From the NCBI GenBank assembly GCA_021771185.1, contig JAETPN010000006.1, forward strand, positions 1 to 57,489: DNA of 57,489 nt, read 5' to 3'. The translations under genes and the position numbers were made by a program. The notes beneath the pieces were generated by a model. It searched no databases and was not told the DNA's origin. It saw only the letters and a list, made by a program, of their open reading frames with translations. This document shows, piece after piece, positions 3,325 through 7,044 of this stretch; within the stretch, counting starts at the first letter, position 1; every line of letters starts with the position of its first letter. Origin of the DNA: Bacillota bacterium (GTDB lineage Bacteria > Bacillota_I > Bacilli_A > RF39 > UBA660).

Positions 3325-3349
3325 AAAAAAAGGCAATTGCTTGCCTTTT
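3325..3349 (-). terminator. Terminator after spoVAE
   Basis: On the minus strand, AAAAGGCAA and TTGCCTTTT pair around a GCA loop and are followed by a T run. The stem overlaps the spoVAE stop codon. Confidence 0.85.
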
Positions 3350-3698
3350 AATCTTTAGGTTCAAATATTAAAGATAGAAAGAAGGAAATAATGATCGCTG
3401 CGATAATTCCCGTACTCGTAAGATCAAACATTCCCATTGCAAGCCCCATAAAACCAAAATCGCTTGCCTTTGCGAGTGCACCATGGATCAAAGAATGTCC
3501 AAAGCTCGTGATTGGAACCATGGCTCCTCCACCAGCCCATAAAATAATTTTATCGTAAATACCAAAGATATCTAAGAAAGCCCCAATGCATACAAACATA
3601 GAAGTCACATGTCCTGGCGTAAGTTTTGTATAATCTAAAATTAATTGTCCAAGGACACAGACAAATCCACAGAATAAGAATGCATTAACATAGATCAT
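3348..3698 (-). CDS. spoVAE: Stage V sporulation protein AE (SpoVAEb type)
   Basis: SpoVAE is a small membrane protein of the SpoVA channel, which moves dipicolinic acid into the forespore and out during germination. This copy is 116 residues, the usual SpoVAEb length, with about three hydrophobic segments. It carries the family signature region GAMVPITSFGHSLIHGA and FGIYDK. Its ATG overlaps the spoVAD TGA stop (ATGA), so translation is coupled. It is the last gene of spoVAC-spoVAD-spoVAE and is followed by a terminator. SpoVAA, AB and AF are not present here, as in many reduced Firmicute sporulation gene sets. Confidence 0.95.
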   Translation of the reverse strand: MIYVNAFLFCGFVCVLGQLILDYTKLTPGHVTSMFVCIGAFLDIFGIYDKIILWAGGGAMVPITSFGHSLIHGALAKASDFGFMGLAMGMFDLTSTGIIAAIIISFFLSLIFEPKD

Positions 3699-4684
3699 TC
3701 TACCACCTCCAAACTAACTGCATGTGCAATTGCTGGAATACTAAGTTTTTGATTGACCATCGTGGTACTCATTAATGCTCCTGTTGCAACTAATAATACT
3801 CTTTTTAATTTATGTTTTTTCATTTGATGAAAAATATAACTATACGTAACAAGTGGTGCACAAGCAGGTCCACTTCCTCCAGAATATACTTCTTGATTTT
3901 CCAAATCAAAAATCATAGCTGCTGTATCATCATAGTGTTTTAATTGAATTCCATATTCTGTATTCATATAATCTACTAAAATCTTTTTCCCAACACTTCC
4001 AAGATCTCCAGTTAATACAAGATCATAATAATCAATTTCTCTCTTTGTATCTTGTAAATGTTTAAAAATAGTATCTGCCGCTGCTGGTGCCATGACAGCT
4101 CCCATTTGATAAGCATCCTTAACACCCATATCAACAACTTTACCAACAGTTCCACTTTCTATACGAATACCCTTTTTATTATACGTTACATAAGCCACAG
4201 CTGCACCCGTTGTCGTAAACGTCGTCGTTTTTGGCTTTGGTCCACCATATTCTACAGGATAACGAAATTGTTTTTCAGCCGCATTATTATGAGAAGACGC
4301 TGCACATAAACAATGTTTTACTTGTCCCGCTTCAATCATATTAGCAGCTAAAAGTAAACCTTCTACACTACTCGCACAAGCATTATAAACACCTAAATAC
4401 GGAATATTTAACGTACTAGCCGCATAATTTGAAGCTACCAATTGATTTAATAAATCACCAGAAATAAATAAATCAATATCAAAACGATTTTTACCTAATT
4501 TATTTAAAGTAATATCAACCGCTTCTTCAATTAGTTTAGATTCCGCTTGTTCCCATGTCTTTGTACCAAAATAAAATTCATCATGACTTCGATCAAAATA
4601 ATTATTTAAGGGTCCTTTTTTTTCATAAGGACCTACCACTGTCCCCGTTTCATTAATATATACGTTTTTATAAGTAAATGTCAT
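3695..4684 (-). CDS. spoVAD: Stage V sporulation protein AD (thiolase-fold SpoVAD)
   Basis: SpoVAD binds dipicolinic acid on the inner forespore membrane and works with SpoVAC and SpoVAE. The 329-residue protein shows the thiolase/KAS-like fold. It has YNACASSVEGLLLAA around the position of the active cysteine, and VLTGDLGSVG and SGGSGPACAP near the C-terminus, all typical of SpoVAD. The ATG at 4684 is preferred over an in-frame TTG four codons upstream, because the GGAGG site lies between them. It starts one base after the spoVAC stop. Confidence 0.95.
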   Translation of the reverse strand: MTFTYKNVYINETGTVVGPYEKKGPLNNYFDRSHDEFYFGTKTWEQAESKLIEEAVDITLNKLGKNRFDIDLFISGDLLNQLVASNYAASTLNIPYLGVYNACASSVEGLLLAANMIEAGQVKHCLCAASSHNNAAEKQFRYPVEYGGPKPKTTTFTTTGAAVAYVTYNKKGIRIESGTVGKVVDMGVKDAYQMGAVMAPAAADTIFKHLQDTKREIDYYDLVLTGDLGSVGKKILVDYMNTEYGIQLKHYDDTAAMIFDLENQEVYSGGSGPACAPLVTYSYIFHQMKKHKLKRVLLVATGALMSTTMVNQKLSIPAIAHAVSLEVVE

Positions 4685-4685
4685 C

Positions 4686-5126
4686 TTAACCTCCAAATAG
4701 TATTAATCTCACAAGTCCAAATACATAAGCACTAACAACACCAAAAATAATTACACTTCCACTTAACTTTAACATGTTAGCACCAATTCCTGTTACAAGT
4801 CCCTCTTTACGATATTCTAAAGCAGCGCTCATCGTCGCATGGGCAAAACCAGTAATTGGAACAATTAAACCAGCTTTCGCAAAATTTACCCATTTATCAA
4901 AAAAACCAAAACAAGTAAGTAAACATCCAACAAAAATCAAGGTAATAATCATATAAGGAGAAGCTTCTGTTGTAGGAATATGAAGCCAGTTCGAATAAAG
5001 ATCAATTAAAAATTGTCCTAACACGCCCATAAGACCACCAGTAACAAAAGCAAGTAACCCATGATATAAACCATTTTCCTTTGGTGTATGTTTTGCGACT
5101 AAATGTTTATACTTATTTTTTTCCAT
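4686..5126 (-). CDS. spoVAC: Stage V sporulation protein AC
   Basis: SpoVAC is the pore-forming, mechanosensitive-like subunit of the SpoVA dipicolinate channel. This protein is 146 residues from the ATG at 5126, which follows an AGGAGGGA site. An in-frame start 13 codons earlier is less likely. Four hydrophobic segments are visible, with the family motifs GGLMGVLGQFLIDLY and KAGLIVPITGFAHATMSAA. It is the first gene of the spoVA operon and has a sigma-G-type promoter directly upstream. Confidence 0.95.
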   Translation of the reverse strand: MEKNKYKHLVAKHTPKENGLYHGLLAFVTGGLMGVLGQFLIDLYSNWLHIPTTEASPYMIITLIFVGCLLTCFGFFDKWVNFAKAGLIVPITGFAHATMSAALEYRKEGLVTGIGANMLKLSGSVIIFGVVSAYVFGLVRLILFGG

Positions 5127-5143
5127 AAAATCCCTCCTAAAAG

Positions 5144-5173
5144 TATTATGGAAACAATTTTTCATTTTTATAC
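5144..5173 (-). promoter_or_regulatory. Sigma-G-type promoter of spoVAC-AD-AE
   Basis: On the minus strand, GTATA (5169-5173) is followed after exactly 18 bases by CATAATA (5144-5150). This fits the Bacillus sigma-G consensus (GNATR, 18 bp, CATNHTA) at every defined position. spoVA is a sigma-G target in B. subtilis. Confidence 0.7.
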
Positions 5174-5205: not shown

Positions 5206-5922
5206 TTATTTTTTCTGACCTAATTTTTTTACTTTTTGCTCTTCTAATACTAATTCCGGAGCATTCTTCTTTAATACTTCAACATCCTCGTTAATATAAA
5301 GTTTTTGAGCTTCCCATGATTCTATAACCGCACGTAAACTTTCTAAAGAGTATATTTCTAAAGAATTTACCACATGAGGCTGAAAAACTTTTTCATCAGA
5401 TTGTTTTGGTTTTCCAGAACTCTTTATATCCTTTTTTTGAACCATTAAGCTTAGTCTATCATCATAATTCTTTAGATCATCTAAATGTTCTATAATATAA
5501 TCTGTTTTTTCCATTTCATTAGCTACATTATGATAACGAGTATATCGTTTGTGATGACGAATTTTCTTCGCAATTATAACAGGTCCCATATAACCTAAAA
5601 ATAATAATAGAGTTATCAAGCCAGGGAACACAACCGCACAAAGAAGAAGTAAAAGTGGAACTACTATCATTAGCAATTGGCCGGATTCATTCCTCCCATC
5701 AAATACAGGGTCTATTTTATTATATTCAAGATCCTTCACCACACCTTTAGCGTTTTCTAATTGTTCATATATTGTGTTTAAAATCTTTTTTTCGCACTCT
5801 ATACTATAATCAACTTCATTTTGAATTCCATTCGCATGGTAAATAATAATTTTATCTCCTACAATCTCATAATGCTCAATAAATAAATGTTCTGGTATTC
5901 CATATTCCTTATTATATTTCAT
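5206..5922 (-). CDS. Membrane protein of unknown function between sigF and spoVA
   Basis: This 238-residue protein has a soluble N-terminal region of about 75 residues. A hydrophobic hairpin (about 78-112, two membrane spans) follows, then a basic stretch and a charged C-terminal domain ending KKLGQKK. I do not recognise a family. It occupies the place between sigF and spoVA where B. subtilis carries spoVAA/spoVAB, but it does not resemble either. It has its own terminator and a sigma-A-like promoter, so it need not be forespore-specific. A role in sporulation is a positional guess only. Confidence 0.65.
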   Translation of the reverse strand: MKYNKEYGIPEHLFIEHYEIVGDKIIIYHANGIQNEVDYSIECEKKILNTIYEQLENAKGVVKDLEYNKIDPVFDGRNESGQLLMIVVPLLLLLCAVVFPGLITLLLFLGYMGPVIIAKKIRHHKRYTRYHNVANEMEKTDYIIEHLDDLKNYDDRLSLMVQKKDIKSSGKPKQSDEKVFQPHVVNSLEIYSLESLRAVIESWEAQKLYINEDVEVLKKNAPELVLEEQKVKKLGQKK

Positions 5923-5947: not shown

Positions 5948-5976
5948 ATTATATCAAAAAAAAAAAAAAAAAGCAA
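5948..5976 (-). promoter_or_regulatory. Promoter embedded in the sigF terminator
   Basis: On the minus strand, TTGCTT (5971-5976) and TATAAT (5948-5953) are 17 bases apart. The -35 is the 3' arm of the sigF terminator hairpin, and the spacer is 15 Ts plus GA. It would drive the 5206-5922 gene. Confidence 0.55.
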
Positions 5977-5990
5977 CGAACATTGCTTAG
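5955..5990 (-). terminator. Terminator after sigF
   Basis: On the minus strand, AAGCAA and TTGCTT pair around a six-base loop and are followed by a long T run (17 As on the plus strand). The stem overlaps the sigF stop codon. Confidence 0.85.
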
Positions 5991-6634
5991 GAATAAGTTA
6001 AATCTTCACGAATTTTTTGTAAGACTTTCTCTTTTTTTCTAGATACTTGTACTTGACTTGTATGAAGTTCTTTGGCTACTTCTGATTGTGTTCGTTCTTT
6101 AAAATAAAGATCCTGAATTAACTGATGTTCTTCACGTGTTAATTTTTGAAGTGAATGTTTTAAATCTAATAATAAATCAATATCTTTTTGTTTATCACTA
6201 ATTAGTTCGTGGTAGCACATTTCTTTTCCATCTAAATTAACTGGTTCTTCCATACTTTTTACAGGTGTTTTAGAACCTAAAGCCTCAGCAATCATCCACT
6301 CTTCTAAACCTAATGTAGTTGCGATTTCACGAACAGTTGGTGTTCGACCTAATTTTTGTGTTAATAAAACATTTACCTTTTCAATCTTTGCATTTAACGC
6401 AGTTAAATCACGACTCACTTTAATTGGTTTATCCTCTCGAGTGAGTTTTTTCATTTCCCCTAAAATATAAAAATAGGCATAACTACTGAATTTGGTATCA
6501 AATCCTTCCTTATAATTTTTTTCTGCATTCAACAAACCAATATACCCTACTTGAAATAAATCTTCCTTGTTTGGGTAATACGGAAAATGTTTCACCACTT
6601 TCCAAATTAACTTCTGTTTCTGTAACTCATCCAT
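5987..6634 (-). CDS. sigF: Sporulation RNA polymerase sigma factor, sigma-F-like
   Basis: This sigma-70 factor of the SigB/SigF/SigG group would direct early forespore transcription. The 215 residues begin at region 2.1 (LIWKVVKHF), so the roughly 35 residues ahead of it in B. subtilis SigF (255 aa) are missing. Region 2 shows EDLFQVGYIGLL and FSSYAYFYILGEMKK. Region 3 has KVSRDLTALN and GRTPTVREIATTL. Region 4 has the helix-turn-helix TQSEVAKELHTSQVQVSR. The last two resemble SigF more than SigG. It follows the STAS gene by 13 bases, whose stop abuts its GGGGG ribosome site, and precedes spoVA as in Bacillus. No spoIIAB lies beside it. A SigB-like stress factor is the main alternative. Confidence 0.85.
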   Translation of the reverse strand: MDELQKQKLIWKVVKHFPYYPNKEDLFQVGYIGLLNAEKNYKEGFDTKFSSYAYFYILGEMKKLTREDKPIKVSRDLTALNAKIEKVNVLLTQKLGRTPTVREIATTLGLEEWMIAEALGSKTPVKSMEEPVNLDGKEMCYHELISDKQKDIDLLLDLKHSLQKLTREEHQLIQDLYFKERTQSEVAKELHTSQVQVSRKKEKVLQKIREDLTYS

Positions 6635-6647
6635 ATCTTTTTCCCCC

Positions 6648-6983
6648 TTAATTTTGATGTAACAGAATCAATTCATCTTGAATCTCATTCATATAAGTTA
6701 ATAGTCGACTGTGTTTTAATCGTCGTTTCACGAGTCGATGATGAATTCCACATAAGAAAGCCACGCCTCCATTTCCTTTAACAATTTGATACTCTTCCCA
6801 TAGTGCATTTAAACCTTGATCATCAATGAAAGTTAACTCCTCTAAATTAAAAACAACACAACTAATCCCTTTATTTAGCACTTGATCAACATCATCTAAA
6901 TCATGAATCGTCTCTTTATTTAAATTACCAATAAAACGAATAAATAAAATACCCTTTCGGTATTCCATATTAATATCTAACAT
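6648..6983 (-). CDS. STAS-domain protein, SpoIIAA-like anti-anti-sigma factor
   Basis: SpoIIAA proteins release sigma-F by binding the anti-sigma kinase SpoIIAB, which inactivates them by phosphorylating a serine. This 111-residue protein has the STAS strand-helix pattern and lies directly before sigF. At the phosphorylation loop, where SpoIIAA has Asp-Ser-Ser-Gly-Leu, it reads FIDDQGLNALW (residues 52-62), so Gln56 replaces the phosphoacceptor. It may be constitutively in the active-like form or work by another mechanism. The start at 6983 follows a GGTGAGGGG site. No spoIIAB gene is present in the operon. Other STAS roles cannot be excluded. Confidence 0.8.
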   Translation of the reverse strand: MLDINMEYRKGILFIRFIGNLNKETIHDLDDVDQVLNKGISCVVFNLEELTFIDDQGLNALWEEYQIVKGNGGVAFLCGIHHRLVKRRLKHSRLLTYMNEIQDELILLHQN

Positions 6984-7032
6984 AACCCCTCACCTAAAAC
7001 AAGATTATCACAACTATTTTTTGATTACTAGA

Positions 7033-7044
7033 GTTTCGACAAAA
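7033..7044 (-). promoter_or_regulatory. Candidate Spo0A box upstream of the STAS-sigF operon
   Basis: TTTTGTCGAAAC on the minus strand contains the Spo0A core TGNCGAA exactly. It lies 50-61 bases upstream of the STAS start codon, with a possible extended -10 (TGTGATAAT) between them. In B. subtilis spoIIA is Spo0A-activated. The core also occurs by chance inside valS, so this is suggestive only. Confidence 0.45.

Follow-up and report, generated by a model that had tools for sequence, protein, structure and literature searches.

The bacterial family represented by the window (the whole stretch of 57,489 nucleotides analysed here) has lost the SpoIIAB/SpoIIE partner switch, a conclusion that we regard as practically certain. 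In most members the spoIIA-like operon retains sigma-F along with a STAS protein derived from SpoIIAA, which very probably has taken on a new function rather than being in decay. Since SpoIIAB and SpoIIE are gone, the ATP-dependent partner switch is inoperable, and because the STAS protein cannot be controlled by phosphorylation either, some other mechanism must govern the initial step of spore development.

Organization of the locus

The STAS gene (6648..6983, minus strand) encodes a protein of 111 amino acids and is followed by the gene for sigma-F (5987..6634, minus strand), a protein of 215 amino acids with regions 2, 3 and 4 present and a short N-terminus. The junction between them, GGGGGAAAAAGAT (6635..6647, minus strand), lies where spoIIAB is found in related families. 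Coordinates and strand thus confirmed the sequence-only reading of this DNA, according to which the two ORFs are 13 bases apart with no spoIIAB between them. Downstream of sigF, also on the minus strand, are a membrane protein of unknown type (5206..5922), SpoVAC (4686..5165; TIGR02838, 2.8e-47), SpoVAD (3695..4696; TIGR02845, 1.4e-125, above cut-off) and SpoVAEb (3348..3698; TIGR02839, 5.2e-39, above cut-off). The spoVA synteny, taken in the same reading as support for the identity of the operon, stands, with the spoVAC-spoVAD pair shared with true spoIIA operons. The order STAS-sigF without spoIIAB is repeated across genera of the family, and the arrangement is therefore not due to chance.

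Some local variation was seen. The membrane protein has no convincing Pfam or NCBIfam match, and its gene is absent from the sigF-spoVAC interval in the related genomes examined, where spoVAC comes directly after sigF. A run of about 18 A (5956-5974) lies between sigF and this inserted gene, in plus-strand coordinates just upstream of the sigF stop codon. In one family genome (G005), metK is found between the STAS gene and sigF, the Spo0A box is kept by the STAS gene, and a glyS-like gene instead of spoVAC follows sigF.

Loss of SpoIIAB and SpoIIE

The window's genome has 1.24 Mb and is 94% complete. Only three weak matches to the SpoIIAB profile were detected in it, all of them histidine kinases, which share the ATPase fold, and the possibility of SpoIIAB elsewhere in the genome was rejected. 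The sequence-only reading had proposed that SpoIIAB was elsewhere or lost; it is lost, being absent from the window's genome and from all 243 family genomes searched (148 genera), and no matching spoIIAB elsewhere, which that reading had named as evidence against itself, was found. None of the first 25 family genomes reached the SpoIIAB cut-off, which was passed by five genomes from other families of the same class. Weak profile matches occur in most genomes. Hits to small, seemingly standalone ATPases that were inspected in five genomes (G002, G003, G017, G018 and G020) were discarded as kinase C-termini, kinase fragments or truncations at contig ends.

In related families, the order SpoIIAA (with the motif DSSG), SpoIIAB, SigF and SpoVAC is found at the same place. 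In an even sample of 345 genomes from the class, SpoVAD was detected in 108, 44 inside the family and 64 outside; among these, a comparison of the two hit lists shows SpoIIAB in none of the 44, versus 63 of the 64. The sole exception outside the family (G422) is an assembly with 6% contamination, and SpoIIAB is present in its genus-mate (G404). Given these proportions and the 243 genomes without a single SpoIIAB, missing parts of assemblies do not explain the absence.

A search for spoIIE, also suggested by the sequence-only reading, found no copy in the window's genome and no bona fide SpoIIE in the family. Matches to the SpoIIE domain (PF07228) were obtained in 5 of the 243 family genomes, and by their architecture these are RsbU-like or other PP2C proteins, the RsbU-like ones having an ATPase at the C-terminus or in the neighbouring gene; they were rejected as SpoIIE since none has the SpoIIE architecture. 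In three family genomes (loci L148, L149 and L150) an RsbU-type PP2C protein occurs with an RsbW-like ATPase, either fused or directly downstream, as a separate signalling module. A search for Gin/CsfB as a substitute anti-sigma factor gave only two sub-threshold matches, one with internal stops, and the control genomes, including Bacillus subtilis, were also unmatched, which makes the negative a weak one. The absence of both SpoIIAB and SpoIIE supports the rewired sigma-F switch that had been suggested from the window.

Identity of the sigma factor

The top NCBIfam model for the window's sigma factor is spore_sigF (9e-48), with 163 bits against the curated SigF cut-off of 321 bits (TIGR02885). 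Strong divergence, visible as long tree branches, is likewise seen in the sigma factors of relatives from the class that have spoIIAB, and a fast-evolving lineage may be the source of the sub-cut-off scores of both the STAS protein and the sigma factor. The best solved structure for the sigma profile is sigma-F (1l0o_C, 1.2e-61), from the SpoIIAB-sigma-F complex, while another sigma factor (8x6g) was matched at 2.8e-41. The gene also occupies a position orthologous to sigF, with the STAS gene upstream, spoVAC-spoVAD downstream and a Spo0A box.

SigB, SigF and SigG are close paralogues, and the gene could in principle encode a SigB-type stress factor accompanied by RsbV, an assignment that the sequence-only reading had named as its refutation. 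We find this hardly credible. The SigB model (TIGR02941) reaches 6e-26 versus 9e-48 for SigF, the SigF model and the sigma-F structure rank first, the spoVAC-spoVAD synteny is common to true spoIIA operons, and a Spo0A box is present upstream. No RsbW-type gene was found in the window's genome by profile search. In a tree of 92 sigma factors (SigB rows left out, midpoint rooting for drawing only, long branches present), the 51 SpoIIAB-less sigmas form one clade with support 100/98, apart from SigG, and placed next to it, with weak support, are the sigma-F proteins of class relatives that have SpoIIAB. This single clade points to one old loss of SpoIIAB.

The N-terminal truncation of about 35 residues described in the sequence-only reading is real; its link to the loss of SpoIIAB is not sustained, as the same short N-terminus is common to spoIIAB-bearing relatives (G026, G028, G031 and G038), which rules it out as a component of the rewiring. 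The sigma-F proteins of several SpoIIAB-bearing class relatives are strikingly short, with 181-223 amino acids (L031-L035), and in two of these relatives (G026 and G038) part of region 3 is missing and SpoIIAA and SpoIIAB are still kept.

A remodelled SpoIIAA-type protein

The STAS protein of the window matches the Pfam STAS family (1e-9), and the best solved structures for its profile are those of SpoIIAA (1auz and 1th8, 4e-20). Its AlphaFold model (pLDDT 88.9) superimposes on SpoIIAA 1thn_B with a TM score of 0.88. The curated SpoIIAA model (TIGR02886) gives 41 bits, under the cut-off of 114.75. The loop without a phosphorylatable serine noted from the sequence was verified: it reads F-I-D-D-Q-G here versus F-M-D-S-S-G in SpoIIAA, the codons for I-D-D-Q-G (6813..6827, minus strand) standing in place of M-D-S58-S59-G. 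All 50 operons that contain spoIIAB have Ser58, within the motif DSSG, versus 3 of 43 without it (two of the 43 rows duplicate another row and one is a fragment), and the loop is freely variable among the SpoIIAB-less rows.

The change extends along the protein. E21, D23, H25, F55, S58, S59, G62, G66, R67 and G95 are near-invariant in SpoIIAB-bearing operons and lost in the others, and of these R67 is part of the interface of SpoIIAA with SpoIIE as well as of that with SpoIIAB (PMC11418112). L3, G12, I13 and G42 (SpoIIAA numbering) are newly near-invariant or strongly conserved in the SpoIIAB-less proteins. Between close species, dN/dS is 0.02-0.16 for the STAS gene and 0.09-0.13 for sigF; in one pair (G001/G002) the values are 0.022 and 0.123, respectively. 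This low dN/dS, together with the shift in constraint, indicates a functional gene whose task has changed and not a relic. The operon as a whole is not decaying either, since the dN/dS of the STAS gene is similar to that of sigF, new conserved residues have appeared and the Spo0A box is kept.

Where the two genes are adjacent, the distance from the STAS stop to the sigF start ranges from -13 to +17 bases. No recognisable STAS gene accompanies sigF in 3 of 25 family genomes (G012, G017 and G019), and the same was seen in eight named loci. As these genera keep sigF, the STAS protein is not a universal substitute for the switch, and sigma-F can run with none of its known partners. For a read-through fusion of STAS and sigma from one locus (L004), AlphaFold gave a pTM of 0.36 and no confident packing, and hence no support for direct binding; with a shallow alignment and a linker of five residues, this was a weak test. 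Our literature search found no paper on direct binding between a STAS protein and a sigma factor.

Spo0A box and promoter region

A perfect Spo0A box, TTTGTCGAA (7035..7043, minus strand), is located upstream of the operon, and a candidate -10-like element, GATAAT (7004..7009, minus strand), lies in a genus-conserved block of a five-species alignment. The core motif of Spo0A is TGTCGAA (PMC3485338). At 35 of 42 SpoIIAB-less loci this core occurs in the 200 bp that precede the STAS gene, where simple shuffling predicts 0.54; in most cases it is 50-66 bases ahead of the STAS start. A lone site of this kind is expected by chance about once per window, and the evidence therefore consists in the conserved place. 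The box also occurs upstream of sigF in most genomes without the STAS gene. Spo0A likely drives transcription of the operon, as judged from these motifs.

Certain relatives that retain SpoIIAB (G028, G031 and G034) likewise carry the perfect core. The box thus marks continuity of control and not a shift to transcription, and the idea of a stronger Spo0A box as a compensating change is unsupported.

Rest of the sporulation pathway

The family is apparently spore-forming, as suggested by its gene content. Of 25 family genomes, 24 encode SpoIIR, which in B. subtilis is the sigma-F-dependent signal that triggers the processing of sigma-E; the genus alignment shows no evident conservation of a sigma-F promoter ahead of spoIIR. 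In the window's genome, one contig (C29) carries an ORF in the position of spoIIGA, assigned by position only, followed by sigE and sigG, and a probable sigK is on another contig (C17). Between sigE and sigG, the genome encodes a 260-residue protein of unknown type (L146, 5143-5925, plus strand). SpoVAD was unmatched in some family members. To our knowledge, no member of the family has been cultured; its named relatives include Candidatus Coprosoma intestinipullorum. The passages found of a 2024 survey of Bacilli list spoIIAB and spoIIE among the genes reduced or absent in the order RF39 and spoIIGA, spoIIM, spoIIP and spoIIQ as present, and predict spores with markedly different regulation (PMC10868615).

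Proposed regulation of sigma-F without the switch

The overall picture that we propose, to which we give about an even chance, is that of a spoIIA operon in which one ancient event removed spoIIAB and spoIIE, leaving sigma-F outside partner switching, driven by Spo0A and accompanied by a phosphorylation-independent STAS partner. Sigma-F would no longer be held by an ATP-dependent anti-sigma kinase, nor released by dephosphorylated SpoIIAA, and Spo0A, to judge from its conserved box, would be the trigger of operon transcription. The descendant of SpoIIAA would have lost the phosphosite and the residues facing SpoIIAB and SpoIIE and gained conserved residues of its own under purifying selection. 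Translationally coupled to sigma-F and made together with it, the STAS protein would, as its most likely role, bind sigma-F or its RNA polymerase and so limit or license the sigma factor, while in several genera without even the STAS gene sigma-F would be run from the Spo0A box alone. That the STAS protein acts directly on sigma-F, through a predicted binding, is a possibility that we place somewhat below even. More tentative still is the stronger claim that sigma-F is under the direct control of the SpoIIAA-derived protein, with neither an anti-sigma kinase nor a phosphatase involved, which would make the earliest cell-specific event in endospore formation unlike the textbook switch.

The main rival is purely transcriptional control, in which Spo0A and, downstream, SpoIIR-SpoIIGA would account for all regulation of sigma-F, and the STAS protein would act elsewhere in sporulation with no hold on the sigma factor. 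The persistence of the Spo0A box before sigF where the STAS gene is absent, the loss of that gene in several genera and the retention of SpoIIR in 24 of 25 genomes agree with it. However, the tight translational coupling of the two genes wherever they are adjacent, and their equal selective constraint, suggest a joint function, and the perfect Spo0A core is in part an ancestral trait; we consider this explanation rather unlikely, although it deserves more weight than the others that follow.

Selection on the STAS protein could also be due to an anti-sigma factor that escaped recognition, either a histidine-kinase ATPase recruited to this role or a small protein of unrelated origin, which would have replaced SpoIIAB and would still partner the STAS protein. 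Weak SpoIIAB-profile matches in most genomes would fit such a replacement, but those inspected are histidine kinases or their fragments, Gin was not found (the controls, B. subtilis included, being likewise unmatched), and the residues lost from the STAS protein are precisely those conserved alongside SpoIIAB. We judge it improbable. A relic on the way to the loss of sporulation, with the STAS gene as a passenger, is very improbable: the dN/dS of 0.02-0.16 between close species, the newly conserved STAS residues, the near-fixed position of the Spo0A box and the SpoIIR genes all speak against it, despite the small genomes (about 1.2 Mb), the free variation of the STAS loop and the family members in which SpoVAD is unmatched. 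At least 148 sampled genera of the family live without the switch, and most members nevertheless keep sporulation genes, among them those for sigma-F, SpoIIR and SpoVA. Such a family would show that cells can do without the paradigm for setting up forespore fate, would account for the scoring of such bacteria as non-spore-formers, and offers a natural experiment for learning the purpose of the switch.

Comparison with known systems

The locus resembles the B. subtilis spoIIA/SpoIIE system in its gene order except for spoIIAB, in its Spo0A box and in having orthologues of the STAS protein and sigma-F, and it shares neighbouring spoVA genes with the spoIIA operons of class relatives. It differs from B. 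subtilis in that the family has neither SpoIIAB nor SpoIIE, and its STAS proteins differ from SpoIIAA in the loss of Ser58/Ser59 and R67 and in the new conserved residues. The RF39 survey, in the passages found, describes the same reduction or absence of spoIIAB and spoIIE, and the family fits this description (PMC10868615). To judge from its gene content and its named relatives, the family very probably belongs to RF39. As a gene list, the lack of both proteins had therefore been reported before; these passages stay at the level of gene presence and do not treat SpoIIAA, its phosphosite, the operon or the promoter (PMC10868615). Our analysis adds the operon structure, the clade-wide loss of the phosphosite, the shift in constraint, the purifying selection and the Spo0A box.

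Other STAS proteins offer partial parallels. MlaB, which binds an ABC transporter directly and thereby regulates it, is similar in that a STAS domain serves as a regulatory subunit (PMC7367683); its partner, in contrast, is the transporter ATPase and not a sigma factor. RsbS of the stressosome has the STAS fold and a weaker sequence match to the window's protein (5e-4), but it forms large complexes with RsbR and RsbT, and there are no such neighbours at the window locus. A second STAS-like protein, of 82-95 amino acids and without DSSG, aligns with only the initial two thirds of the model and occurs in the genus of the window and in close relatives. In the window's genome its gene is at L135 2245-2532, minus strand (G000:C17, about 212744-213031), with similar genes in L136, L137, L138 and L139. 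It adjoins a MurT/GatD-like pair, and in G005 lies just upstream of yqfC-yqfD-like genes.
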